From a virus, in IMG/VR virus record IMGVR_UViG_3300022937_003894, positions 1 to 20,518 of that record: a DNA stretch of 20,518 bases. One strand, written 5' to 3'. Numbering within the stretch: the first letter of the stretch is position 1; every line of letters starts with the position of its first letter. The position numbers and the translations under genes were made by a program. Under the pieces are notes generated by a model. That model made no database searches. It was not told the origin of the DNA and saw only the letters and a program-made list of their open reading frames with translations. Below are positions 815 through 18,609 of this stretch, in pieces.

Positions 815-1780
815 TTAAAAGTTTGCAAATCCTTGGAACGCAAATCCATGGATAGCCAAGACGATTACAACTGACAGCGCCAGTCCAATCATCATTTTGA
901 AAAAGTCTCTCCCAACTAAAGGAAAAACAGTTTTAAACTTGTATTTGCCATTCACTGAAGCAAATGCAAGTTCTCTACCTGCCAACAAACCAACAAATAC
1001 CCAGGTAGTTGACATAGGTATACTATTGTATTCTTTAAAATACCATAAAATTATACAATAAATTAAATCCACTAATGTTGCCGATCTAACATATTTTGTA
1101 TTTGTTTTACTCAATACGACATCTTGAATTCTCCCACCTTTTTCATAAAACATGTAGGATAGTCCAGCAACAAAAATCAAACTAATCATAAACATAGTTT
1201 CTATCGGAATTTGTCTAGGCAAGAATACTGCAATGTTTGCCATATCGTGACTCAACCATGTAAACCATAACCAACCGGTTGTACACCACTGTGCAACCCT
1301 CCACCATTTGTCATGACTTGCTGGAATTTCTGTTTTTGTCTCCCAATATTTTGATACAGCCAACCATATAATATATGCTGCGGCTGCGGCAACCAAGTAA
1401 CCCATTGCCGATTTTAATAAAACTTTTTCTAAAACAACGGTGCTGGCAAATGCACTTAAAACTAAAAATGTTGTACTCACAGGTATGCCGAATCTTGTCA
1501 ATATCACAAGCACAAGAGGCGCCACTGCATGGTACCATTGAACGGGTTGATATGGAATTTTTTCTAATCTTCCATAAGAAATATCTCCTGCATTGACATA
1601 CCATCCATACCATATAGTGAACAAAAGCACAATACTGCTTGCGGCCCACATCACATACCATTTAAATTTCTCTGAATTACTAGCAATCCAAGTGCCTAGT
1701 GTTTGAACACTGTCATTGGCAATAACCGAATAACTAGCAAGTGTAAATCCTATAATCGTGTAGAGTAATGTTACATCCAT
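815..1780 (-). CDS. PiT (PHO4) family inorganic phosphate transporter-like permease
   Basis: A 321-residue, very hydrophobic protein with about nine or ten predicted membrane helices. It shows the internal duplication of the PiT/PHO4 family of ion-coupled phosphate symporters: the first half has AND at residues 21-23 followed by PVSTT at 100-104, and the second half has SHDMAN at 177-182 followed by PMSTT at 255-259. Typical PiT signatures are GANDVAN and P.STTH, so the motifs are degenerate. The length fits short bacterial PiT proteins. Start ATG 1780 is supported by GGGAGA five bases upstream. Its likely role is phosphate uptake in the inner membrane during infection. Divergence leaves room for another anion as substrate. 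A 36-aa membrane microprotein follows at once. Confidence 0.75.
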   Translation of the reverse strand: MDVTLLYTIIGFTLASYSVIANDSVQTLGTWIASNSEKFKWYVMWAASSIVLLFTIWYGWYVNAGDISYGRLEKIPYQPVQWYHAVAPLVLVILTRFGIPVSTTFLVLSAFASTVVLEKVLLKSAMGYLVAAAAAYIIWLAVSKYWETKTEIPASHDKWWRVAQWCTTGWLWFTWLSHDMANIAVFLPRQIPIETMFMISLIFVAGLSYMFYEKGGRIQDVVLSKTNTKYVRSATLVDLIYCIILWYFKEYNSIPMSTTWVFVGLLAGRELAFASVNGKYKFKTVFPLVGRDFFKMMIGLALSVVIVLAIHGFAFQGFANF

Positions 1781-1813
1781 TAGTCTCCCTTTTTTTATAA
1801 GTTTATTTTGCTA

Positions 1814-2155
1814 TTATATCTTGTAATAATTACTGAAATAAGTTTCTGAATTCCAGCTTTTATCACATATGTACATATCAAAATGAGGTTTATTATTAAT
1901 CATTAATTCATGATATTTGCACCCCCATTCTTTGAGTTGTCTTAAAGTCAACTCGGTATGATCAATTTTTGACAAAACACCTCTTGCGGTCCAATAAACA
2001 ATTTTATTTCCTTCATCATATAATCTATTGATTTTTTCTATTCTATTTTTGTAAGGTTCTACCTGGTCATAACTAATTGTTGGATCATTTCTTTCTTCTC
2101 TCAAATGATCTCTATTTTGACAAATAGTGCCATCTATGTCCACAAATATTATCAT
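1814..2155 (-). CDS. Small HAD-superfamily phosphatase
   Basis: A 113-residue stand-alone HAD-fold hydrolase. Motif I is IIFVDIDGT with D6 (nucleophile) and D8 (acid/base). Motif II is YWTARG with T56. A lysine in NNKP near residue 89 may be motif III, and D98 in YICDKSW fits motif IV. It has no large cap domain, as in phosphatases that act on macromolecular, polynucleotide or sugar-phosphate substrates. The substrate cannot be read from sequence. GGAG just upstream of ATG 2155 supports the start. It lies between guaC and the phosphate transporter, so a nucleotide phosphatase is possible, but a sugar-phosphate role is just as likely. Confidence 0.8.
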   Translation of the reverse strand: MIIFVDIDGTICQNRDHLREERNDPTISYDQVEPYKNRIEKINRLYDEGNKIVYWTARGVLSKIDHTELTLRQLKEWGCKYHELMINNKPHFDMYICDKSWNSETYFSNYYKI

Positions 2156-2166
2156 ATATTCTCCAA

Positions 2167-3249
2167 TTACGATTTGCCAAAAACCTCATTCAACTGACGG
2201 TTTACCTTGACAAAAGTTGTACATTTCGGCAATGATTTCAATGTTCTGGCACCTGCATACGTACAAGCACTTCTCAAACCTCCCATTATTTCCTCAACTG
2301 TTCGACTAACAGGTCCTCTATAAGGAACTCTAACTAGTTTTCCTTCAGACGCTTTGTAGTTTTCCATACCTCCCATATGCAAATCTTGGGCTTCTTTAGA
2401 AGACATGCCATAAAATTCAACATATTTATGCCTAAAAAATGCAGGAATGTCTTTGACGGTATCATCATCATTGATATCAAATTCTTTTAAAGCATATGCT
2501 TTTTCTATTATTTTACCCTCTCCCTCATCATGACCGGCTAACATGCCTCCCAACATGACAAAATCCGCCCCTGCCGCAAATGCTTTCGCTACATCTCCAG
2601 GAACTGTACATCCTCCATCTGCTACAATATGCCCTCCTAAACCATGAGCAGCATCAGAGCATTCTATTATGGCAGAAAGTTGTGGATATCCAACGCCTGT
2701 CATTTTACGGGTTGTGCATACAGATCCAGGACCGATCCCTACTTTTACCACATCAGCACCTGCTAAAATTAATTGCTCGGTCATTTCTGCGGTCACAACA
2801 TTTCCAGCAACAATAATATGATCTGTAAATAATTCCCGCACTTCAGAAACATAGTTGACAAATCTTTCAGTATAGCCATTTGCAACATCCAAACAAATCC
2901 AGTTTAATGCAGACCATTTAAAAGATGATACAAATTTTTCGGTTACTTTATGTTCATCACCTATACCCAATGTCATAATGGCATTAGGACCCCACGGAAA
3001 ATTATCTAATTCAACGTATTTAGTCAATGCAGTCAAGCAATCATACTTCGACAAAGAATTATGCATTGAAACAGTTCCAACACCATCCATATTTGCTGCT
3101 ATAATAGGAATACCAGACCATACTTTCGGTGAATATTTAAAAGAAAATTCTCTTTTCAGATTCACTTCTTTTCGAGAATTCATTTGAGATCTTTTAGGTT
3201 TGATTAACACATCTATAAAATCTAATTTTGTATCTTCAATAATTCGCAT
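2167..3249 (-). CDS. guaC: GMP reductase
   Basis: A 360-residue protein closely matching GMP reductase (NADPH-dependent deamination of GMP to IMP) along its full length. The N-terminus (EDTKLDFIDVLIKPKRS) and the PIIAANMDGVGT region are as in Escherichia coli GuaC. The catalytic loop GIGPGSVCTTR holds Cys178, followed by TGVGYPQLSA. DGGC at 211-214 binds the phosphate, and YGMSS at 280-284 and GLRSACTY are conserved. GMP reductase is distinguished from IMP dehydrogenase by the absence of CBS domains and by this signature. It carries an insertion of about 15 residues before YGMSS compared with the E. coli protein as I recall it. It overlaps the nucleosidase by 14 bases. In the phage it would shift guanine nucleotides towards IMP and AMP, useful for an AT-rich genome. 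Confidence 0.93.
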   Translation of the reverse strand: MRIIEDTKLDFIDVLIKPKRSQMNSRKEVNLKREFSFKYSPKVWSGIPIIAANMDGVGTVSMHNSLSKYDCLTALTKYVELDNFPWGPNAIMTLGIGDEHKVTEKFVSSFKWSALNWICLDVANGYTERFVNYVSEVRELFTDHIIVAGNVVTAEMTEQLILAGADVVKVGIGPGSVCTTRKMTGVGYPQLSAIIECSDAAHGLGGHIVADGGCTVPGDVAKAFAAGADFVMLGGMLAGHDEGEGKIIEKAYALKEFDINDDDTVKDIPAFFRHKYVEFYGMSSKEAQDLHMGGMENYKASEGKLVRVPYRGPVSRTVEEIMGGLRSACTYAGARTLKSLPKCTTFVKVNRQLNEVFGKS

Positions 3250-3715
3250 ATTTTTTCCTATAAATTAAGTCAAATGTTTTTTTACCATCTCCTACTTTTT
3301 TCCAAAATTCATCGATACTGTTTTTTCCAACATAATCAGAAACATATTTAAAACAATAAAAATCAATATTTTTCGTTTCACATATTTTTTTTAACCAATA
3401 AGCTTCGCAATCCACTAAATCTGCATCAATATCATTTCTTTCAGTTAAAAATTTATCATGGGAAATTAATTTCAAACCTTTGCCATCTCCCAATATTTCA
3501 TCATCGAATGTATTACTAAATGTAGTAATATTGTATAATCCATGATATTTTTCATAAAAACTTCCACAAGTTCCGTAATTTATAACTGTTTTTAAATCAG
3601 GATTCTGTTCAACAAACAATGAAAAGTTTGTTTTAACTTTCTCAGGGCCTACACCTGTCAACAAATCAAAATAATCAAATTCTTCCTTTAAAGCTATAAC
3701 TAGTGCAGTTTTCAT
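3236..3715 (-). CDS. Short MTA/SAH-nucleosidase-like (nucleoside phosphorylase fold) protein
   Basis: 159 residues in the PNP/UDP phosphorylase fold, much shorter than the usual 230 or so. Landmarks: ALKEEFD at 8-14, TGVGPEKV at 20-27, VINYGTCGS at 44-52, DCEAYWL at 102-108 and YVSDYVGKN at 124-132. The three catalytic positions of E. coli MTA/SAH nucleosidase (E12, E174, D197) map to E11 or E12, E104 and D127. The 23-residue spacing of the last two is identical, so it is probably an active N-glycosidase releasing a base from a nucleoside. The missing residues fall in the middle, where substrate-specificity loops lie. Its stop overlaps guaC and its start overlaps the oxygenase gene by one base, so it is inside one operon. 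The exact substrate is unknown. Confidence 0.75.
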   Translation of the reverse strand: MKTALVIALKEEFDYFDLLTGVGPEKVKTNFSLFVEQNPDLKTVINYGTCGSFYEKYHGLYNITTFSNTFDDEILGDGKGLKLISHDKFLTERNDIDADLVDCEAYWLKKICETKNIDFYCFKYVSDYVGKNSIDEFWKKVGDGKKTFDLIYRKKYANY

Positions 3716-4554
3716 TAGTAACTCTGATTGAGGCGCCAGACTAGATATTCTTTAGCACCTATTGATTTATATTTTTGTTCGCCAATAAGACTATCAACTT
3801 GAACATCATCGCAAGGGTGAACAAAATAAGGGAAACTGTAACGGCTAATATTGAGATGATCATTAACAACACGATGAGGAGTAGAAATGTAAATATCGTT
3901 AGTCCAACGTTGAAGTAAATCACCAACATTGACAATGCAGGTGTTTGGTATGTACGGCGCATTGACCCATTCACTTGTTCCTCTTGGCTTTATTTGAAGT
4001 CCTGGATTTTCATCTGTAAACAATATAGTTATAGTACCATAATCAGTATGTTCACCACCTCTCATTTGATTCTCTTGAATCTCACCATTCCATGCTGGAT
4101 AATGTAACATTCTAGTTGTTGTTGATTTTGAACCTTGATGTTTTTCAATCAATGTTAATTCTGGTAATTCTAATGCTTTCTCAATGAGTTGTAAAATGCG
4201 TTTAGTAATAAGTTCTAATACGAGATTCCATTCTTCACAAACAACTTTGAATTTTTCACTGGGCCATTTATTGTCTTCAATGTACTTACACCAATTGAAT
4301 GCTTCTTTTAAATCTGGTGGAGTACCTGGTGTCAAACTTTCAATCATTCCCTGATAACCAGTGTTTGATTCTGTTGATGTATATTTGTATTTGTTTTTTT
4401 CTTCTACTGGAAGGGAAAAGAATTCTTTGGCGTGATCGAGTATTTTGGGCCAGGTTGTTTGAGTTTTAAAATAAGCAAACCCAATTGTTTTAAATGCTTC
4501 ATCTAGTTTTAGATGTGCATCATCATCTAAATGATTAATGACTGGTATTTCCAT
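3715..4554 (-). CDS. Isopenicillin-N-synthase-like 2-oxoglutarate/Fe(II) dioxygenase
   Basis: 279 residues with the two-part layout of the family: an N-terminal DIOX_N-like region (IPVINHLDDDAHLKLDEAF, then GFAYFK) and a C-terminal jelly-roll. The iron ligands are H169, D171 (GGEHTDYGTIT) and H227 (STPHRVV), and R238-x-S240 (SRYSFPYF) is the 2-oxoglutarate-binding RxS. NVGDLLQRWTND, typical of the family, lies between them. All key residues are present, so it should be catalytic. Family members oxidise many small molecules; one known nucleobase-active member is fungal thymine-7-hydroxylase, which makes a nucleobase substrate attractive here given the neighbours, but that is inference. It overlaps the nucleosidase by one base and follows the sulfotransferase-like gene by one base. 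Confidence 0.85.
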   Translation of the reverse strand: MEIPVINHLDDDAHLKLDEAFKTIGFAYFKTQTTWPKILDHAKEFFSLPVEEKNKYKYTSTESNTGYQGMIESLTPGTPPDLKEAFNWCKYIEDNKWPSEKFKVVCEEWNLVLELITKRILQLIEKALELPELTLIEKHQGSKSTTTRMLHYPAWNGEIQENQMRGGEHTDYGTITILFTDENPGLQIKPRGTSEWVNAPYIPNTCIVNVGDLLQRWTNDIYISTPHRVVNDHLNISRYSFPYFVHPCDDVQVDSLIGEQKYKSIGAKEYLVWRLNQSY

Positions 4555-4555
4555 T

Positions 4556-5599
4556 TCATCCTAACCATGTTATAAATTCATAGTGATGTGCTTTAAAGCA
4601 ACTATTATGTGAACCTGTTATAAATTTGTTTAGTGGTTTCGGATATTCTGCAAAAGTAGGTATCACATATTCCCACACAGTTTCACCCTCAGTAGTTACC
4701 TCAAACAATCGACCAAAAGCACTCTCACATATAAATGTATTTCCATTCCATGTTCGTTGAACACTTCCCATGTAAGGTGAGAAAAATGCAGGAGGCAATG
4801 GATCCACATAGGACCATATGAGTTCCTTTGTCTTCGGATCGTATTCAACTATTCTAGAATGATGTATTGAATTTGGCCTCAAATTTCCATTATCAAAACA
4901 TAATATATTTCCATTATCTAATTCAACAGGACAATGTTGTTGTGCCACAAGAGGATATTCCAATGTCCATAAAATTGTTTTAAATTTCTTATCGACACAA
5001 ATAATTCCACTTGTAGTTCTCAAACTCATTAATACATTTCCGTCTCGGGTTACATTTAGGCCATTAATCATTGGCCAATGATCATCTGAAAAGCATTCAT
5101 GTTTTTTAAATCTTTGAGGAACTAACCAATCGCTTGCTTTCCACTCCCATATGACTTCACCATCTCTATTGACTTCTTTGACAACATCCTGAACTGTTTT
5201 AGTATCTTTATCATAAACTGCTGCTGTATATAAAAGATTACCGTTATCCATCCAAAGGGCATCATGATGGTGATAAGGATCTTCATATTCCCAAATAACT
5301 TTACCATATGGATTTACCTCAATAAAATGTCCTCCATGCCATATGTCCCATGCTGGATACAAATCTACAGATTTCTCATGACTACCATTATACCCTAAAT
5401 TCCCATTAGACAATAAAACAGCATCACGTCCAGGTCTAACTGGCATATTCCATTTATGAATTCTGGCACCTCTATGGTTAATAATCTCAACTAAACCGCC
5501 ACCAGTTTGAGTAGTAAAAAGGACATATCCTTTGCTACATTTTTTATCATTTTTTCCAATTAAACCAGTTTTTCTTCTCTCAATAGTGTTTTGGTTCAT
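4556..5599 (-). CDS. Arylsulfotransferase (ASST)-like beta-propeller protein
   Basis: 347 residues of repeated propeller blades, each ending in a 'xGxVIWEY' type strand: VIWEYEDP near 101-108, VIWEWKAS near 149-156, ILWTLEYP near 209-216, LIWSYVDP near 260-267 and TVWEYVIP near 307-314. The N[GD]N[LI]L turns (LLSNGNLGY, WMDNGNLLY, ELDNGNILCF) are typical of the arylsulfotransferase/ASST family. Histidine-rich loops (H110-H112, H174, H222, H246-H247) could supply the transferase histidine, but I cannot map it with confidence. Unlike classical ASST it has no signal peptide, so it would be cytoplasmic. GAGG upstream supports ATG 5599. It sits between pyrB and the oxygenase in one operon. A non-enzymatic propeller is an alternative. 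Confidence 0.72.
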   Translation of the reverse strand: MNQNTIERRKTGLIGKNDKKCSKGYVLFTTQTGGGLVEIINHRGARIHKWNMPVRPGRDAVLLSNGNLGYNGSHEKSVDLYPAWDIWHGGHFIEVNPYGKVIWEYEDPYHHHDALWMDNGNLLYTAAVYDKDTKTVQDVVKEVNRDGEVIWEWKASDWLVPQRFKKHECFSDDHWPMINGLNVTRDGNVLMSLRTTSGIICVDKKFKTILWTLEYPLVAQQHCPVELDNGNILCFDNGNLRPNSIHHSRIVEYDPKTKELIWSYVDPLPPAFFSPYMGSVQRTWNGNTFICESAFGRLFEVTTEGETVWEYVIPTFAEYPKPLNKFITGSHNSCFKAHHYEFITWLG

Positions 5600-5605
5600 A
5601 AAGCC

Positions 5606-6496
5606 TCATTTTAATATTTTTTCAAGTAGGTATTTTCTAACTACCAATCCATTTTTCATTTGTTCAAAATATTTTGCTCTAGGATCACTATCAAACCAGG
5701 TGGGAAGTTCTTCTAATCTAGGTAGAGGATGCATGACTATTGCATTGGCATTTAAAGATAATGCATCATCTTCATTGAATGAATAAGTTCCGGCAGATAT
5801 TATCGCACCTCTTTCTTTTTGAACTCTGGTTAAATATAAAACATCTGAATTTTCTAATATATCATGATTTAAATCGGTAAATATTTCATCTTCTTCCCTA
5901 AGATATTCAACAGGTAATTTCAACGATGCAGGAGAAACCAATTTTACATTAGTATTAAATAAATGCAATACAGAAATCAATCCGTGTATTGTTCTACCAT
6001 ACTTTAAATCTCCCATCAAAATTAAATTTAGACCATCTATCGTTTTAAATTTTTTAAAAATAGTATATAAATCTAACAATGTTTGTGTTGGATGTTCGCC
6101 TATTCCGTCACCGGCATTGATAATAGGTATAGAAGAAATTCTTGCCGCCCTATGTGCAGCACCTGTTTCTGGGTGTCTCAAAACAATACAATCAACATAA
6201 TTTTGCAACGTCAAAATAGTATCTTCCAGTGATTCTCCTTTTGATACACTACTATAAATCACATTATTAATGTTCAAAACTTCATGACCTAGATATTTTT
6301 CTGCGGCATAAAAACTGGAATTAGTTCTGGTACTAGGTTCATAAAATAAATTAGCAACCATTTTCTTTTTGATTACGTTATCATCAAATGTTTTAGGATC
6401 ACTATCATCATATTCTAAAATATCATTTAATATTTCCAGTATTTCTTCTTTTGAAAAATTTTTACATGTTATAAAGTGCTGTCCAGGTTTAATCAT
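5606..6496 (-). CDS. pyrB: Aspartate carbamoyltransferase, catalytic chain
   Basis: 296 residues, close to the usual 300-310, with all motifs of the ATCase catalytic subunit that condenses carbamoyl phosphate and aspartate in de novo pyrimidine synthesis. Visible: phosphate-binding STRT at 55-58, SVSKGES with K86 (the Lys84 equivalent), LRHPETGAA with R107, GEHPTQTLLDL with H135 and Q138, KYGRT with R168, YLTRVQKER with R224 and Q226, and MHPLPR at 255-260. ATCase rather than ornithine transcarbamoylase is indicated by KYGRT, TRVQKER and HPLPR. Residue 59 onward reads NSSF instead of the commoner RLSF. No pyrI or pyrC is visible. It follows the ABC permease by one base, so it is cotranscribed with the importer. 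The active site looks intact. Confidence 0.93.
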   Translation of the reverse strand: MIKPGQHFITCKNFSKEEILEILNDILEYDDSDPKTFDDNVIKKKMVANLFYEPSTRTNSSFYAAEKYLGHEVLNINNVIYSSVSKGESLEDTILTLQNYVDCIVLRHPETGAAHRAARISSIPIINAGDGIGEHPTQTLLDLYTIFKKFKTIDGLNLILMGDLKYGRTIHGLISVLHLFNTNVKLVSPASLKLPVEYLREEDEIFTDLNHDILENSDVLYLTRVQKERGAIISAGTYSFNEDDALSLNANAIVMHPLPRLEELPTWFDSDPRAKYFEQMKNGLVVRKYLLEKILK

Positions 6497-6497
6497 G

Positions 6498-7271
6498 TTA
6501 TGCCTTTTTTAGTTCTGATTCATGCCATGTATTTAATAATATGTATCCCAGTATGGATATAACAGTAAAAAACATAAATCCTAAAAATGTTGATGTAAAA
6601 ATTAATGCCATGACTAAAGATGTCTCCAAATTTGCTTGGGCATAAATTATTTGCACACCTAATCCACCAACGGAACTACCGGATCCAATTATGAATTCTC
6701 CCACAATAGATCCTATAACAGATAATCCTGCAGATATCTTCATACCAGCAATAATATTTGGTAATGCATATGGAAACTTTAATTTAATAAAATTATTAAA
6801 ATTATTAGATTTATGCATTTTAAATAATTCCATCAATGTTTCAGGTGTTGATTTAAGTCCAAATAATGTATTATTAATGATTGGAAATAAAGATATAATA
6901 ACTGAAATTATAATCACACTTCTTTCTTCAAAACCGAACCACAAAACTATTAAAGGAGCTACTGCAACAACTGGAACAGTTTGTAATAAAATAGCATAAG
7001 GATATAAACTTTTTTCTAAAATTTTAGATAAACTCATGATCGTAGCAACAACTAAACCAATCATCGTAGCAATAATAAAACCAGTAATTGCTTCTCTAAA
7101 AGTTATAAATGCACCTTGTAAAATTATAGAATAATCTATTAAGAATGTTTCAAAAACATTTATCGGACCGGGCAATAAAAATTTCATGTCGTAATAAAAT
7201 GAAGCAATTTGCCAGCAGGCAAAAAACAAAATGAGAATAATTATAGGGGGAAAAACTTTATTTAATGACAT
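6498..7271 (-). CDS. ABC transporter permease, ThiX/SsuC-like
   Basis: 257 residues with about six hydrophobic segments and the binding-protein-dependent permease fold. The N-terminal LPGPINVFETF motif (33-43) is typical of the nitrate/sulfonate/thiamine-precursor group. The EAA-type coupling loop lies near 147-175 (KMHKSNNFNNFIKLKFPYALPN) and ends in the usual LP. It lacks the strict EAA...G residues but keeps the position and the following IIAGMK helix. Its start overlaps the ATPase gene by 10 bases, which fits coupled translation. With the ATPase (7262-7966) and binding protein (7977-8906) it forms a complete importer. The family does not fix the substrate: taurine, sulfonates, nitrate or a pyrimidine precursor are all known. 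Confidence 0.87.
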   Translation of the reverse strand: MSLNKVFPPIIILILFFACWQIASFYYDMKFLLPGPINVFETFLIDYSIILQGAFITFREAITGFIIATMIGLVVATIMSLSKILEKSLYPYAILLQTVPVVAVAPLIVLWFGFEERSVIIISVIISLFPIINNTLFGLKSTPETLMELFKMHKSNNFNNFIKLKFPYALPNIIAGMKISAGLSVIGSIVGEFIIGSGSSVGGLGVQIIYAQANLETSLVMALIFTSTFLGFMFFTVISILGYILLNTWHESELKKA

Positions 7272-7966
7272 GATCTCAACTTTCTTGAAATATTATTCAC
7301 CAATTTTAAAAAAACAGATTTCTCTCTTATACTTCTATTTCTGTCATTATAAGGCACATCAACAACATCAATAATTTCTGCGGGTCTATTGCTCATAATT
7401 ATTACACGATTACTCAAATAAACCGCTTCTGCCACATTATGTGTGACCAATACACCTGTAAAATTATCTTTTTTCCATAAATTATAAATTTCTTCTTGAA
7501 GTATTTCTCTGGTAAATTCATCAACAGCAGATAATGGTTCATCTAACAATAGATAACTTGGATTTAAAACTAATGATCTAGCCAAACTCAATCTCATTTT
7601 CATACCACCGCTTAATTGGTGTGGATAATTATTTTCAAATCCTTTTAACCCCACCCGTTCCAATACATCATATGATTTAAATTTGTAATTATCTACTTTT
7701 TCTAATTCCAATAATAATTCGACATTTTTTAATACTGTTCTCCATGGTAATAATGCACTATCTTGAAACACAAAAGCACCATTAGAAGGTCTTCTAACAG
7801 TGCCTTGATATGGAATTAATCCTGCGATAATTCGTAATAAAGTAGATTTACCACAGCCTGAAGGTCCGACAATACTGACAAACTCGCCTGTGGCAATTTT
7901 CAAATTTATATTGTTCAATGCTTGAATTTCACCAAAATTTTTATTTACATTACAAATTTCAATCAT
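7262..7966 (-). CDS. ABC transporter ATP-binding protein, ThiZ/SsuB-like
   Basis: 234 residues with every ATPase motif in place: Walker A GPSGCGKST at 34-42, Q-loop glutamine Q68 (VFQDSALLPWR), signature LSGGM at 118-122, Walker B YLLLDE at 138-143 and switch histidine H176 (LVTHNVAEAV). The FQDSALLPWRTV stretch is typical of the TauB/SsuB/ThiZ group of importers. It should energise the adjacent permease on the cytoplasmic face. The gene overlaps the permease by 10 bases and follows the binding-protein gene by 10 bases. The start has no strong Shine-Dalgarno, consistent with coupling to the preceding gene. There is no sign of decay. Confidence 0.92.
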   Translation of the reverse strand: MIEICNVNKNFGEIQALNNINLKIATGEFVSIVGPSGCGKSTLLRIIAGLIPYQGTVRRPSNGAFVFQDSALLPWRTVLKNVELLLELEKVDNYKFKSYDVLERVGLKGFENNYPHQLSGGMKMRLSLARSLVLNPSYLLLDEPLSAVDEFTREILQEEIYNLWKKDNFTGVLVTHNVAEAVYLSNRVIIMSNRPAEIIDVVDVPYNDRNRSIREKSVFLKLVNNISRKLRSCH

Positions 7967-7976
7967 TGATTACCGT

Positions 7977-8906
7977 TCAATTACAATTACTCAAAAAAGA
8001 AAGATCATATGATGAAGTCGGATCAAAATTAGCAGGCACAACATCAACTTCTTTCAACTGTGAGGACAACTCATCCCATCTACCTGGACTCATGCAACCT
8101 AATTTTGCATGATCTTTGGGTAAAAATTCTTCTTTCATTAAATTAATCGCATTCATATGAATTGATTCATTTGTTTTTTTATCCTTAGACAATATCAAAT
8201 CCATAGTTGGTTTAGGATTGTTTAATGATTTTGAAAATGCTGCTCTTAATCTCCAAACAACCTCTCTTACCAATTCAGGATTTTCATCAATCATTTTTTG
8301 TGTTGTAAATAAAACACTATATGGTTTATATCCTAAATCGGCAACTTTAATTTGGGCATTAGGAATACCCTTTGCATCCATTCTAGCAGGTAAAAATAAA
8401 CTATATCCTTGTTGAAACATTTCCGGACTTTTCGCAAATAGTCCTAAATCTCCAGTGAGAGGAAATTCATCGACATAATTCAATCCATATTCCTTTTTGA
8501 TCCATTTCCAATATGTAATACCAGGAACAACAGCAAATCTTCTACCATCAAGATCTTTTACTGTTTTAATTCCCTGATTTGGATGAAAAACTAATGTATA
8601 GGGAACATGATCTAGATTTGCAAAAATTGCTACCAATCCTGCGCCTTTAGAATTTGCTTGCATCACACTGTCTGATCCGTTTAACCCAAATTCAACTTGT
8701 CCACTGGCAACTGCCGCAGTTGTACTAACTTTTGGACCTCCAGGCTTTACATTAATCTTCAATTTATAATTATCGTTATCCAACATTGCTTGCCAGAAAA
8801 CACTTTGATTACCTTGCGGAAACCAGTCCATCAATAATGTAACCTCCTTGGCATGTGCCGAGAAGGAAATAAAAATTGTTAAAATTAAACTTAAAATATA
8901 TTTCAT
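7977..8906 (-). CDS. NMT1/THI5-type periplasmic substrate-binding protein of an ABC importer
   Basis: 309 residues beginning with a signal peptide (MKYILSLILTIFISFSAHA, likely cut after residue 19). The mature part starts EVTLLMDWFPQGNQSVFWQA, like the 'LDW.PN..H' start of NMT1/THI5/ThiY proteins. It continues with VASGQVEFGLNGSDSVMQA, IKTVKDLDGRRFAV and YKPYSVLFTT, all normal for the fold. Known members bind thiamine pyrimidine precursors such as formylaminopyrimidine or riboflavin, and relatives bind sulfonates. The THI5 CCCFC signature is absent. It heads the importer genes and follows the BMP-family gene. AAGGAA upstream of ATG 8906 supports the start. A pyrimidine-like ligand is favoured by fold and by pyrB nearby, but is unproven. 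Confidence 0.85.
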   Translation of the reverse strand: MKYILSLILTIFISFSAHAKEVTLLMDWFPQGNQSVFWQAMLDNDNYKLKINVKPGGPKVSTTAAVASGQVEFGLNGSDSVMQANSKGAGLVAIFANLDHVPYTLVFHPNQGIKTVKDLDGRRFAVVPGITYWKWIKKEYGLNYVDEFPLTGDLGLFAKSPEMFQQGYSLFLPARMDAKGIPNAQIKVADLGYKPYSVLFTTQKMIDENPELVREVVWRLRAAFSKSLNNPKPTMDLILSKDKKTNESIHMNAINLMKEEFLPKDHAKLGCMSPGRWDELSSQLKEVDVVPANFDPTSSYDLSFLSNCN

Positions 8907-8926
8907 TTTTATTCCTTATGTGTGTG

Positions 8927-9985
8927 TTATGGATAATTTGAAATTACACCATCAACAAAATAATTCATATTTTCAATTCCCTCACGTCCCATTCCAGGTT
9001 CGACAACTGTTCCATCTTGTTTAGTAAATCCTGCAGAGAATGGAAATGAAGCATCATATTCTTCGGACACAAATTTCTCTTTTTCCGATTCAACATGAAA
9101 TTTGACATTTGCGGGTACATTTGGTCCCCACGGACTAAGTCCTACACAGCCTTTTTCCATACCCCAAAATGGTGTATCAACCTCCCATGTTCCATCTTCT
9201 ACTGATTTCATCACATGCTTATAATAAACATCCCAATTAAACATCGGACCAGTTGCATAACGATCTGGACCAAAAGAATTCATTGGAGCATCATTACCCA
9301 TTCCCCATAAGGGTTTGTCCGCAGTGGATTGCTTTTGTGCTATCATTACTACTGATGGCGAATCTGTAGTTGTAAAGAATACGTCTACTCCATTATTGAA
9401 CAACGCATCTGCTGCTGCGGTGTCTTTCGCAGGATCAAACCATGAATTAATCCAAACAATCTGTACTGTAATATTTGGATTCACAGATTTTGCTCCAAGA
9501 GTTGCAGCATTAATATTGGAAATGATTTCTGGAATTGGATGAGAACCTACAAAACCAATTTTATTAGTTTTAGTTAAAAGTCCTGCCGCCTGGCCTGCCA
9601 AATAACGTGCCTGAAACAATCGACAGTTATAATTATTCAAATTTTCTGATGTTTTGAAACCAGTAGCGTGCATAAATTTAGTATCAGGAAATCTTTTGGA
9701 AACATTTAACATAGGATCCATGTAACCAAAACTTGTACCAAAAACTACATCATGCTTACGTGCCAAATTTCTAAATACTCGTTCTGATTCAGATTCTGGT
9801 ACCGCCTCGACCACATCAAACTCATAACCACTTTCTTTCATTCCCTGATAATGTCTCATACTCCAACCACCATCACTCTTAGGACCTACTAACACCAATC
9901 CTGCTGTTGGTTTTTCTGAGGCATTTAAATTAAATGAGATAATTAGAAATGCAATTATTGAGAAAAGATTAAAGAATTTTTTCAT
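8927..9985 (-). CDS. BMP-family (Med/PnrA-like) substrate-binding lipoprotein-family protein
   Basis: 352 residues with a signal peptide (hydrophobic to about residue 20, likely cut after NLNA at 22; no lipobox cysteine). The mature protein reads TAGLVLVGPKSDGGWSMRHYQGM, the standard BMP/Med start. Then come FGTSFGYMDPM, FMHATGFKT, ARYLAGQAAGLLT and KIGFVGSHPIPEI, all characteristic. Characterised members such as PnrA bind purine nucleosides. The permease pair and ATPase that normally serve this family are not in the window, so this may feed a host transporter, as phage PstS is thought to do. AAGGAG before ATG 9985 is a strong start signal. The gene follows a 63-base leader with an inverted repeat and precedes the NMT1-type importer. 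Confidence 0.88.
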   Translation of the reverse strand: MKKFFNLFSIIAFLIISFNLNASEKPTAGLVLVGPKSDGGWSMRHYQGMKESGYEFDVVEAVPESESERVFRNLARKHDVVFGTSFGYMDPMLNVSKRFPDTKFMHATGFKTSENLNNYNCRLFQARYLAGQAAGLLTKTNKIGFVGSHPIPEIISNINAATLGAKSVNPNITVQIVWINSWFDPAKDTAAADALFNNGVDVFFTTTDSPSVVMIAQKQSTADKPLWGMGNDAPMNSFGPDRYATGPMFNWDVYYKHVMKSVEDGTWEVDTPFWGMEKGCVGLSPWGPNVPANVKFHVESEKEKFVSEEYDASFPFSAGFTKQDGTVVEPGMGREGIENMNYFVDGVISNYP

Positions 9986-10008
9986 TTAACTCCTTCCAAG
10001 TTAATAAA

Positions 10009-10038
10009 GTTATGTCACCTTCCGTGACGTTTTTTCAA
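10009..10038 (-). promoter_or_regulatory. Possible promoter with inverted repeat ahead of the BMP gene
   Basis: On the minus strand TTGAAA (10033-10038) and CATAAC (10009-10014) are 18 bases apart, a weak -35/-10 pair. The spacer holds a perfect dyad, GTCAC-ggaag-GTGAC (10014-10028), placed like an operator. It could instead be a hairpin in the leader of a read-through transcript: on the plus strand it is followed by a T run, but no plus-strand gene ends here. This is the only gap above 50 bases within the metabolic island. Confidence 0.3.
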
Positions 10039-10048
10039 ACACAACATA

Positions 10049-10525
10049 TCAAACTGGTGCATTCCACCAGGATTCCCAAGGAAAATGTATCCAAGTATCA
10101 GTTGAATCCTTGGCCATTTCTTGAGAAAAGTAATGCGGTTTAAAACTTACTTCATTATTCCACCATAATGATGCAAATCTTATATCCGCACACTGTTTGT
10201 TAGATAAAACAGTTTTATTATAATCATCTATTGAATATTTTATTCTTTGAAAAGTTTCACCGCTATCACATATATCATCAACAATTAAAACGGTTTTATC
10301 TTGAGGTTTAGGTAGGAATTCTTCCCATTCTGGAAAATCCCTGAGGGATGCTACAAGAGGGCGAAAAGGTTTTTTAAACCAATGACTCATCATGATTCCT
10401 GGAACCAATCCGCCTCTAGATATGCCTACGATCACATTAGGATTAAAATTGTCAAGAGTTATTTGACGGCAAAGAGCATTAACATCTCTTCGCATTTCTC
10501 TCCAATCATACCAATATTTTTTCAT
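10049..10525 (-). CDS. Purine-type phosphoribosyltransferase (XGPRT/HPRT-like)
   Basis: 158 residues with the type I phosphoribosyltransferase core. The PRPP loop is VLIVDDICDSGET at 79-91, with the DD pair at 83-84. VGISRGGLVPG at 33-43 forms the pyrophosphate loop. A C-terminal IHFPWE at 146-151 matches the FPWE signature of xanthine/hypoxanthine-guanine phosphoribosyltransferases. Tryptophans at both ends are typical of the short XGPRT-like group. It would convert a free purine base and PRPP to the nucleotide, which GMP reductase and the nucleosidase nearby complement. No clear Shine-Dalgarno precedes ATG 10525; the gene follows the H1-like gene by three bases, so coupling is likely. The preferred base (hypoxanthine, guanine or xanthine) cannot be told. 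Confidence 0.85.
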   Translation of the reverse strand: MKKYWYDWREMRRDVNALCRQITLDNFNPNVIVGISRGGLVPGIMMSHWFKKPFRPLVASLRDFPEWEEFLPKPQDKTVLIVDDICDSGETFQRIKYSIDDYNKTVLSNKQCADIRFASLWWNNEVSFKPHYFSQEMAKDSTDTWIHFPWESWWNAPV

Positions 10526-16016: not shown

Positions 16017-16319
16017 TTATACATTGATGGAATTTCTAATAAATCCTCTTGTTGATGTTTTTAAAAACTCATAGCCTTGTGTTTTCAAATTCATTTCATA
16101 ATCTAAATTCGAATCAAATAAATCTTTATTTATTTTAAAATTGACTCTATTTCTCATTAATGGTTTATCTGGATTTTCATCTCTATTTTTTTTATTTAAA
16201 TATATAAAAAAAATCATTTCACAATTGTCATCAGATTTTTCAATGATATAATCTATTTTAAAATAAGCATTTTTTGCAGTCCAACCATAAGTTGTCAAAT
16301 AATCTTTTTCAATTGCCAT
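16017..16319 (-). CDS. Hypothetical phage protein, 100 aa
   Basis: 100 residues, mixed alpha/beta, starting MAIEKDYLTTYGWTAKNAYFKIDYI and rich in charged residues (EKSDDNCEM, LNKKNRDENPDKP, then KINKDLFDSN). The opening 'EKDYLTTYG..A..AYFKI' resembles small proteins found near structural and tail genes in marine phages, but I do not recognise a family. GAGGA eight bases upstream supports ATG 16319. It overlaps the end of the two-helix membrane protein by one base and sits downstream of the tail-fibre-like gene, so an accessory structural or tail role is a reasonable guess only. Confidence 0.65.
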   Translation of the reverse strand: MAIEKDYLTTYGWTAKNAYFKIDYIIEKSDDNCEMIFFIYLNKKNRDENPDKPLMRNRVNFKINKDLFDSNLDYEMNLKTQGYEFLKTSTRGFIRNSINV

Positions 16320-16702
16320 TATTCAGAATCCTCTTTTTTTAATTTTCTTCTTCTATATAACTCAGCATTTTCTTTTGATTCATTGTCATCTGACTTAAAC
16401 CAGTAATCTCCAGTCTTTGCCACCGTAGCTACAAATGCTCCAATCATAATGTTGACTAAATCTCTAGAACCTTGAGGCAATTCTGCATAGAATAATACCC
16501 AAAAGAAAAATATAAAAGTTCCAAAAATGACTAATGATAGTATCATTCTTGCAATCCAATTTAAAATTTTTCTTCTCTCTAAACTTTCATATTTCAATGC
16601 TTCAATCGGATCATGTTCCCACACTCTTTCATTATCCACTTCTATCAACTCCTCTGGAGTGTTAATCTTACCATCGCCTAATCTTTTTTTGTTGTAAAAC
16701 AT
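16319..16702 (-). CDS. Small two-helix membrane protein, holin-like candidate
   Basis: 127 residues. A charged N-terminal half (TPEELIEVDNERVWEHD, then YESLERRK) leads into two hydrophobic helices: about 48-72 (NWIARMILSLVIFGTFIFFFW and onward) and about 83-103 (LVNIMIGAFVATVAKTGDYWF). A very basic and acidic tail follows (RRRKLKKEDSE). Two close transmembrane helices with a charged tail fit class II holins and the 'D.I..I.GA....V....YWFGS' type of phage membrane proteins, but no family is certain. AGGAT lies about seven bases before ATG 16702, inside a palindrome (16709-16724) that could hide it in RNA. Confidence 0.65.
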   Translation of the reverse strand: MFYNKKRLGDGKINTPEELIEVDNERVWEHDPIEALKYESLERRKILNWIARMILSLVIFGTFIFFFWVLFYAELPQGSRDLVNIMIGAFVATVAKTGDYWFKSDDNESKENAELYRRRKLKKEDSE

Positions 16703-17206: not shown

Positions 17207-18055
17207 CTATTGTAATTTGTTTAAAATAGTTTTAATCGATTTTAATTGTTCGGCATTTAACTCGGTTTTCTTGTATATTTTTAATAATTTTATCAATTCC
17301 GTTTTATCTGTATTATTAAAAATTATTTTTTTACCAACACTCCTGTTAAACATTCTGAACACTTCATCACAATTTTTTTCATAAAATTTAGGATTTTTAC
17401 CGTTTATACTATCATAATCTTCATCATTCCAAATAAAAAAACATTCTCTATATCCAGTATTTGACACAAATATCTTCGCAAATGAACTAGGAACTTGTAT
17501 ATTATTTTTCCCTATTGTTTCAGGATCATTATCCCAGAAAGCTAAACTAATTGTTTCCAAACTACCATATTTTTCTGCCATTTCTCTCTCATATTTTTCA
17601 AGAGAAATATATTTGTATCTATTTGTCTTCGGTGTTTGTGGTACAATATTGGACATTTTATATGTGCTATTTAATGCATTTTCATTCCAATCGAATGAAG
17701 CATCAGATGCACCAAAATGTCCTCTATCATATCCCGAATTTGTGTAATCTCTTGTTGTTGACTCAAAACCTTTCGGTATTCTATTATCAGTATAAAAACT
17801 TGGTCTTTTCTTTATACCATCTTTTGATACCTTTTTACCTTCTATTTTTGTATATATTGCTGAAGGACTTTTTCTATCGTAATCATAACATGTGACAAAA
17901 TAATCAATTAAAATCAAATCACAATTTTTTTTATTAAAAATAGAATTTAATTCTTTAATATTGTCAGAATTTATGTCGATAGAAAGTGCATTATTATATA
18001 AAAATAATAATACTAATAATAAAATTGTTTTCTTTAATCTTGACAACAACTGCAT
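17207..18055 (-). CDS. Exported DNA/RNA non-specific endonuclease (DRGH family)
   Basis: 282 residues. The N-terminus (MQLLSRLKKTILLLVLLFLY, then NNALS) is a signal peptide or membrane anchor cut near residue 25. The nuclease domain has the signature YDRGHFGASD with the catalytic histidine H113 in D110-R-G-H. SNIVPQTPKTNRYKY supplies the metal-binding asparagine, probably N145, 32 residues on (Serratia nuclease spacing is 30). The family is sugar-non-specific and cuts DNA and RNA. Export suggests action in the periplasm or outside the cell, for example on competing or environmental DNA, or on host DNA after lysis. Its ATG lies inside the 3' end of the cysteine-rich microgene, so the two are probably coupled. 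Confidence 0.88.
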   Translation of the reverse strand: MQLLSRLKKTILLLVLLFLYNNALSIDINSDNIKELNSIFNKKNCDLILIDYFVTCYDYDRKSPSAIYTKIEGKKVSKDGIKKRPSFYTDNRIPKGFESTTRDYTNSGYDRGHFGASDASFDWNENALNSTYKMSNIVPQTPKTNRYKYISLEKYEREMAEKYGSLETISLAFWDNDPETIGKNNIQVPSSFAKIFVSNTGYRECFFIWNDEDYDSINGKNPKFYEKNCDEVFRMFNRSVGKKIIFNNTDKTELIKLLKIYKKTELNAEQLKSIKTILNKLQ

Positions 18056-18126
18056 GGATTATCTTCTGAGCATTCACAATTTTCGCAATCGCATTCTGGA
18101 TTATTACAATTTGGATTATTACACAT
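18034..18126 (-). CDS. 30-aa cysteine-rich, metallothionein-like microprotein
   Basis: A 31-codon frame from ATG 18124-18126 to TAA 18034-18036. Nine of 30 residues are cysteine, at positions 2, 7, 12, 14, 17, 19, 25, 27 and 28, in C-x-C and C-C arrangements separated by N, P, D and E. This spacing is like metallothioneins and other metal-thiolate clusters. Aromatic residues are absent and the protein is acidic. TAGGAGA about six bases upstream gives a clear ribosome-binding site, and the frame overlaps the nuclease start by 22 bases. Likely roles are binding zinc, copper or another soft metal, or redox buffering. No family is certain. It lacks a signal peptide, so it would stay in the cytoplasm. 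Confidence 0.7.
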   Translation of the reverse strand: MCNNPNCNNPECDCENCECSEDNPCSCCQD

Positions 18127-18135
18127 AAAAATCTC

Positions 18136-18609
18136 CTACATTAATTGATTGAAACTTGAAGGACTAATACCTGAATAATTATTTACAATATGCTCTATCA
18201 TATCTTCAATATCATGGGATTTTAATTCAGGCACATCAAAAAAATTACCATACTCGTTTAAAATATTTTCAAAATTATTAAAATTTGTATGAATAGACAT
18301 AATTTTCATGGTATTTCCGCAATTAAAAGATAAAACATTATCTGTTTTAATATTATTTTTTTTCAGATAATTTATTTTTTCTGTCATATATTTAAAAAAT
18401 ACCTCTTCATCACTTATAACATTAAAAACACTAAATAACATACCATCTTTACTAACTATAGAATCTCTCAAAATATAATGATCGTCCATATCGGCAAATT
18501 TTTGAAAAATATCAGATTCTTTTTTATAATGTTCATGAATGTATCTGTAATGTTGTATTTTTTCATTCGAGATTTTTGATTTTAATTCTACGCTATATGC
18601 AATTTTCAT
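18136..18609 (-). CDS. Hypothetical protein, 157 aa
   Basis: 157 residues, mixed alpha/beta and rich in Asn, Ile, Lys and His. It starts MKIAYSVELKSKISNEKIQHYRYIHEHYK. The middle (YILRDSIVSKDGMLFSVFNVISDEEVFFKYM) looks like two strands and a helix, and the tail (PELKSHDIEDMIEHIVNNYSG) is helical. No signal peptide, no membrane helix and no recognisable motif. Only one cysteine. It lies between nitroreductase (four bases upstream) and the cysteine-rich microgene (nine bases downstream), so it belongs to the same transcription unit. I do not recognise a family. Confidence 0.6.
   Translation of the reverse strand: MKIAYSVELKSKISNEKIQHYRYIHEHYKKESDIFQKFADMDDHYILRDSIVSKDGMLFSVFNVISDEEVFFKYMTEKINYLKKNNIKTDNVLSFNCGNTMKIMSIHTNFNNFENILNEYGNFFDVPELKSHDIEDMIEHIVNNYSGISPSSFNQLM

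Follow-up and report, generated by a model that had tools for sequence, protein, structure and literature searches.

Metallothioneins and the nine-cysteine frame

Metallothioneins are recognized by composition: they are small, poor in or free of aromatic residues, and made up of about 20-33% cysteine arranged in CxC, CC or CxxC motifs. Close CxC/CC spacing with nine cysteines is typical of d10-metal thiolate clusters, and nine is the number that half of an animal metallothionein uses to hold three metal ions. The M3S9 cluster of the beta domain is named in the title of an earlier study (PMC2872756). Prokaryotic metallothioneins (of the SmtA/BmtA type) are also small and Cys-rich and are thought to buffer zinc in bacteria; they have a zinc-finger-like fold and often use His ligands (PMC10612145 and general knowledge). 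The literature searched contained no report of phage metallothioneins; a survey of small genes in phages may already list the family (Fremin et al. 2022).

The window analysed here – a stretch of 20,518 nt (IMG/VR record IMGVR_UViG_3300022937_003894) from an uncultured virus, apparently a marine phage – carries on its minus strand a small open reading frame (sORF; 18034..18126) missed by standard annotation. Its translation, which ends at a stop codon, is the 30-aa microprotein MCNNPNCNNPECDCENCECSEDNPCSCCQD, in which nine residues are cysteine (30%), CxC and CC motifs are both present, and F, W, Y and H are absent: the composition is that of a metallothionein. Directly 5' of the ATG, inspection for Shine-Dalgarno sequences identified a ribosome-binding site region (AGGAGATTTTT; 18127..18137, minus strand), with AGGAG a few nucleotides from the start codon (the preceding sequence is TAGGAGATTTTT). 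The short nine-Cys frame with a strong Shine-Dalgarno sequence, first proposed from the letters of the window, was thus borne out. Among ORFs of 20-60 aa in 150 windows simulated under a first-order Markov model, none reached 30% cysteine (the maximum was 25%). This is a real gene of the phage, neither a product of chance nor unique to the window.

Like the beta domain of animal metallothioneins (1m0j, 1qjl), the peptide combines a length of about 28-30 residues with nine cysteines, CxC repeats and scant aromatics; it differs in having no alpha domain, in the spacing of its cysteines, and in giving no match to PF05522. The same two 28-residue metallothionein chains, 1m0j and 1qjl, are the sole PDB profile matches, at E values (3.4 and 5.9) that are not significant. 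Next to the SmtA/BmtA type, the phage peptides are roughly half as large; most of them contain no His, and none has a Pfam match. The metallothionein profiles of Pfam gave no match at E<=10 to the window peptide or its relatives, while a 28-aa sea-urchin metallothionein segment (1qjl), included as a positive control in the same search, matched PF05522 at 6e-8. Pfam, NCBIfam and PHROGs held no meaningful match for the sORF peptides, and a tblastn search of phage records with the 30-mer returned no match, a result made uninformative by the low-complexity filter. An AF2 model of the peptide (pLDDT 75, pTM 0.29) has no secondary structure and found no match in the PDB by Foldseek; such a model is uninformative on a metal-coupled fold.

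Nine cysteines in three layouts

A search of IMG/VR with the pattern M-C-x4-C-x4-C-x-C-x2-C-x-C returned at least 120 stretches, mostly short frames such as MCNNEECKCENCTCDPCECTIDNQCGCDEELVSAI. Related frames occur in more than 100 IMG/VR contigs and encode at least 78 distinct peptides, which together form an apparently unlisted family of tiny phage proteins. A Shine-Dalgarno 4-mer lies upstream of 50 of the 56 distinct full-length members among the matches listed, compared to 8.2% of all ATGs at the same loci.

Exactly nine cysteines are found in 72 of the 78 distinct peptides, over three layouts (among the matches listed), and the family as a whole has the composition of an M3S9 cluster: nine cysteines in about 30 residues. 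Each of the 56 members among the matches listed has either Cys9 (45) or a second Cys near the C-terminus (11), never both and never neither, the window-type layout – with the second Cys near the C-terminus – being the group of 11; since all members are relatives of one another, the layout counts do not represent independent events. In the third layout, KCCxCxxCxCxPCxC, Cys2 has been dropped and an extra Cys gained adjoining the next one, and all 13 distinct members among the matches listed have nine cysteines. From layout to layout, the loss of a Cys is made good by a gain at another position. Since the first search pattern forced six of the nine Cys positions, we also examined an independent sample of loci, for which a neighbouring SNase gene was the sole criterion and no Cys pattern was applied. 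The sORF is present in 36 of these 78 SNase loci, in 21 distinct forms: 20 of the peptides retain the core nine cysteines, and one has eight plus a His. Decayed forms were absent from this sample in a scan sensitive down to six cysteines.

One feature recurs at the C-terminus. A V-[AS]-x-[IV]-like tail, which may act as a signal for docking or degradation, ends 32 of the 78 distinct peptides among the matches listed and occurs in all three layouts (L003, L036, L040, L072, L316 and others). A tail of this kind, together with the small size and strong acidity of the peptides, would suit a molecule that binds to a host protein or works through thiol/disulfide chemistry, with no metal cluster at all; that Cys-rich peptides could also act via disulfides or protein contact is a caveat to reading the family as a metal buffer. 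We regard this alternative as extremely improbable: nine cysteines fixed over three layouts are hard to explain without a shared cluster, and an odd number is ill-suited to paired disulfides.

Evidence of selection comes from close relatives. The contig L001, the one close contig obtained in a scan with the downstream nuclease as query (83% identity), carries the sORF MCNNPECKNPDCKCENCQCTETNPCSCCA, whose end falls exactly at the start of the nuclease ATG; L003, from the pattern scan, carries MCNNPECKNPQCDCEDCNCSEQSPCPCCYDDNQVSEV, again abutting a nuclease with the DRGH motif. Absence of the frame, or loss of its cysteines, in such relatives had been set as grounds for refutation: both contigs retain the frame, with nine cysteines, directly 5' of the nuclease. 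In L005, likewise from the pattern scan and with different neighbours, the Cys at position 27 is replaced by His and nine ligands are kept. Values of pS/pN are 0.54/0.146 between the window and L001, 0.94/0.187 between the window and L003, and 0.737/0.164 as the family mean (among the matches listed); TGT/TGC switching is seen at every Cys position. Outside the cysteines, N4 is invariant, CDPC frequent and PCxC recurrent among the matches listed. Together these patterns show purifying selection on the protein.

Further Cys-rich frames were seen at other loci. Those of 19-20 aa (e.g. MCECKQCECESCNCSCCEC) in L010, L030, L039, L043, L045, L116 and L122 have phage neighbour genes of another kind, outer-membrane-like proteins among them, and are possibly an independent metallothionein-like group. 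Frames of 69-90 aa (from the ATG) in L304, L324, L342 and L390 carry the motif in fused form: a conserved MIYEKRGxWCWRGKDG domain precedes a terminal CCECEDC-type Cys-rich tail.

The downstream nuclease and its place in the neighbourhood

The gene downstream of the sORF (17207..18055, minus strand) encodes a DNA/RNA non-specific endonuclease of 282 aa. It is a clear member of Endonuclease_NS, both by family profile (PF01223, E=6.8e-35; phrog_14168, E=1.3e-45) and by its DRGH-type active-site motif; the sORF stands outside that family, as an optional neighbour. The motif, YDRGHFGASD, is invariant in alignment A2, as are four cysteines of the nuclease in 4 orthologues, and the N-terminus, read by eye, is hydrophobic and signal-peptide-like. 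A membrane protein gene further downstream (16319..16702, minus strand; neighbour cluster c8) is common to other sORF loci by neighbour clustering, while the gene upstream (18136..18609, minus strand; 157 aa, function unknown), 9 nt before the sORF, is not at this place in L001.

The sequence-only reading had drawn attention to an overlap between the sORF and the start of the nuclease. The overlap is real in the window, where it spans 22 nt (18034..18055, minus strand), but L001 and L003 do not share it: there the sORF stop and the nuclease ATG abut with a gap of 0 nt. The window has lost this ATG and its nuclease starts upstream, within the sORF, so the overlap is lineage-specific; the idea of a conserved overlap was rejected.

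The search for the sORF upstream of DRGH nucleases, proposed in the same reading, gave a divided answer. In the window, L001 (=L249), L003 (=L250) and L276 the sORF immediately precedes the nuclease, and in seven further loci (L251-254, 256, 261, 270) it lies about one gene up, at most ~275 nt away, but most other loci found through the nuclease have no sORF. The nuclease therefore counts as a frequent neighbour, but an optional one. Of the 56 members among the matches listed, 14 are followed immediately by an SNase gene and 3 by a DRGH nuclease gene; in the rest, the next gene is holin-like or unknown. The SNase-type nuclease, unrelated to the DRGH nuclease, is thus the more frequent neighbour. 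Coupling to the DRGH nuclease as a defining feature was rejected, given the commoner SNase neighbours, the non-nuclease genes and the many DRGH loci without the sORF. Two unrelated nuclease families, Endonuclease_NS and SNase, share the slot after the sORF. Between the sORF and IscU, L060, L077 and L104 have a membrane gene plus a DRGH nuclease where L036 and L065 have an SNase, as if one nuclease had been exchanged for an unrelated one.

The sharing of this slot might indicate that the peptide is a dedicated nuclease partner, which supplies metal to, withholds it from, or chaperones the enzyme encoded after it. A nuclease lies within four genes of the sORF in 20 of the 56 distinct members (among the matches listed), and in L248, a contig related in a flanking gene, sORF and nuclease are missing together at this place. 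Such a partnership is nevertheless very unlikely. The DRGH nuclease, with its signal-peptide-like N-terminus, is probably exported, whereas the peptide has no such N-terminus; Endonuclease_NS and SNase enzymes use Mg2+ or Ca2+, which thiolates bind poorly; and the sORF is missing from 42 of the 78 SNase loci as well as from most DRGH loci.

The variety of downstream genes (SNase, DRGH nuclease, holin-like, unknown) bears also on whether the frame is a Cys-codon-rich leader peptide, at whose Cys codons ribosomes would stall when cysteine is short, so regulating translation of the nuclease. Nine Cys codons in 30, and close coupling to the next gene (gaps of 0 to 12 nt in many loci), speak for such a leader. 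A leader is unlikely, however, given that selection acts on spacing and on non-Cys residues of the protein (the N4, CDPC and PCxC noted above), that no RNA structure beyond that of shuffled sequences (z -0.58) and no terminator-like site was found on the minus strand, and that the downstream genes vary. A Cys-responsive leader, defined by a conserved downstream gene plus an attenuator or RNA structure, found no support in these results.

Iron-sulfur genes, hosts and a putative metal buffer

Within four genes of the sORF, IscU-like genes (PF01592) occur in 21, IscA-like genes (PF01521) in 8, M15 peptidases in 13 and Hsp20 in 11 of the 56 distinct members among the matches listed. The window itself has neither IscU nor IscA; these genes and the sORF may simply belong to the same module in these phages.

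Relatives outside viruses are rare. Since a pattern scan of genome contigs returned almost exclusively chance Cys-rich frames (two matches looked genuine), presence in bacteria was tested by profile on whole genomes. Two of ~1,190 bacterial and archaeal genomes were positive, a Gemmatimonadales MAG and a Defluviitaleaceae MAG, and there was no match in 399 genomes of an alphaproteobacterium's phylum, 248 of a flavobacterium's phylum or 194 of a cyanobacterium's phylum. The Gemmatimonadales relative (L219, 1742-1813, minus strand; MCNNTNCTCDTCECTEENPCGCE) has seven cysteines and its own Shine-Dalgarno sequence, and sits between an MscS channel gene and feoA (PF04023, E=1.7e-10). Its place just 5' of feoA recalls FeoA/FeoB operons with small accessory proteins, as a single example; no feo genes occur among the phage sORF neighbours examined.

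Both the IscU/IscA genes and the position of this one of the two bacterial relatives would fit a peptide that acts alongside phage IscU/IscA by binding Fe(II) or an Fe-S cluster. We find this doubtful: around many members there is no Fe-S gene, the bacterial relative is one example with seven cysteines only, and nine cysteines in close CxC/CC spacing fit d10-metal thiolate clusters.

In our judgement the sORF probably encodes a cytosolic, metallothionein-like thiolate metal buffer of M3S9 type, carried by phages as optional late-operon cargo. The proposal of a metal-binding microprotein, already made in the sequence-only reading, is strengthened by the fixed nine cysteines, the lack of aromatics, purifying selection and the restriction of the (non-significant) PDB matches to metallothioneins. 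What the analysis shows is the gene, its conservation under protein-level selection, its fixed Cys count, and its neighbours in an operon-like arrangement; metal binding itself is something that we infer, as are its stoichiometry, the identity of the metal, the shared mRNA and the biological role. The nine thiolates would most likely form a single M3S9-type cluster with about three divalent ions, as in an isolated beta domain. During infection, the peptide would hold Zn2+ (or Cu+) freed as host proteins are dismantled, hand the buffered metal on to phage metalloproteins, and keep metal off thiol sites – for example those of the phage-borne IscU and IscA encoded nearby in many related phages. 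In E. coli, zinc blocks IscU and IscA via their cysteines (PMC6495748); a thiolate buffer could prevent such poisoning. The gene would travel as optional cargo in late-type operons, often right before a nuclease gene and on a shared mRNA; in the lineage of the window, peptide and nuclease would be supplied together through co-transcription and, probably, translational coupling.

There is a modest chance that this virus-restricted metallothionein-like family and the phage IscU/IscA together make up a metal-handling module acting on the zinc, copper or iron economy of the infected cell. Phages of metal-starved marine bacteria would then manage metals with a gene of their own; metal handling by phages is little explored. 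The gene is short and, though common, has so far gone unannotated; its count of nine thiolates is fixed. If the metal buffer is confirmed, it would mark a class of auxiliary genes hidden by gene-calling length cut-offs and would connect the Fe-S assembly genes of phages with the buffering of metals.

The sORF is absent from nine isolate phages, including the Pelagibacter phages Mosig and HTVC008M, and present in four of the five viral records examined beside them. By gene content the nearest isolates are Kyanoviridae, T4-like phages of marine bacteria, a likeness that suggests a host range among marine bacteria.

Elsewhere in the window (815-10525, minus strand) lies a block of metabolic genes that is unusual in a phage contig. 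It encodes a Pho4-like transporter, a GMP reductase/IMPDH, a 2OG-Fe(II) oxygenase, an arylsulfotransferase, an aspartate/ornithine carbamoyltransferase, a PnrA-like nucleoside-binding protein, a phosphoribosyltransferase and a complete ABC transporter (permease, ATPase and NMT1-like binding protein), and possibly serves nucleobase uptake and salvage.
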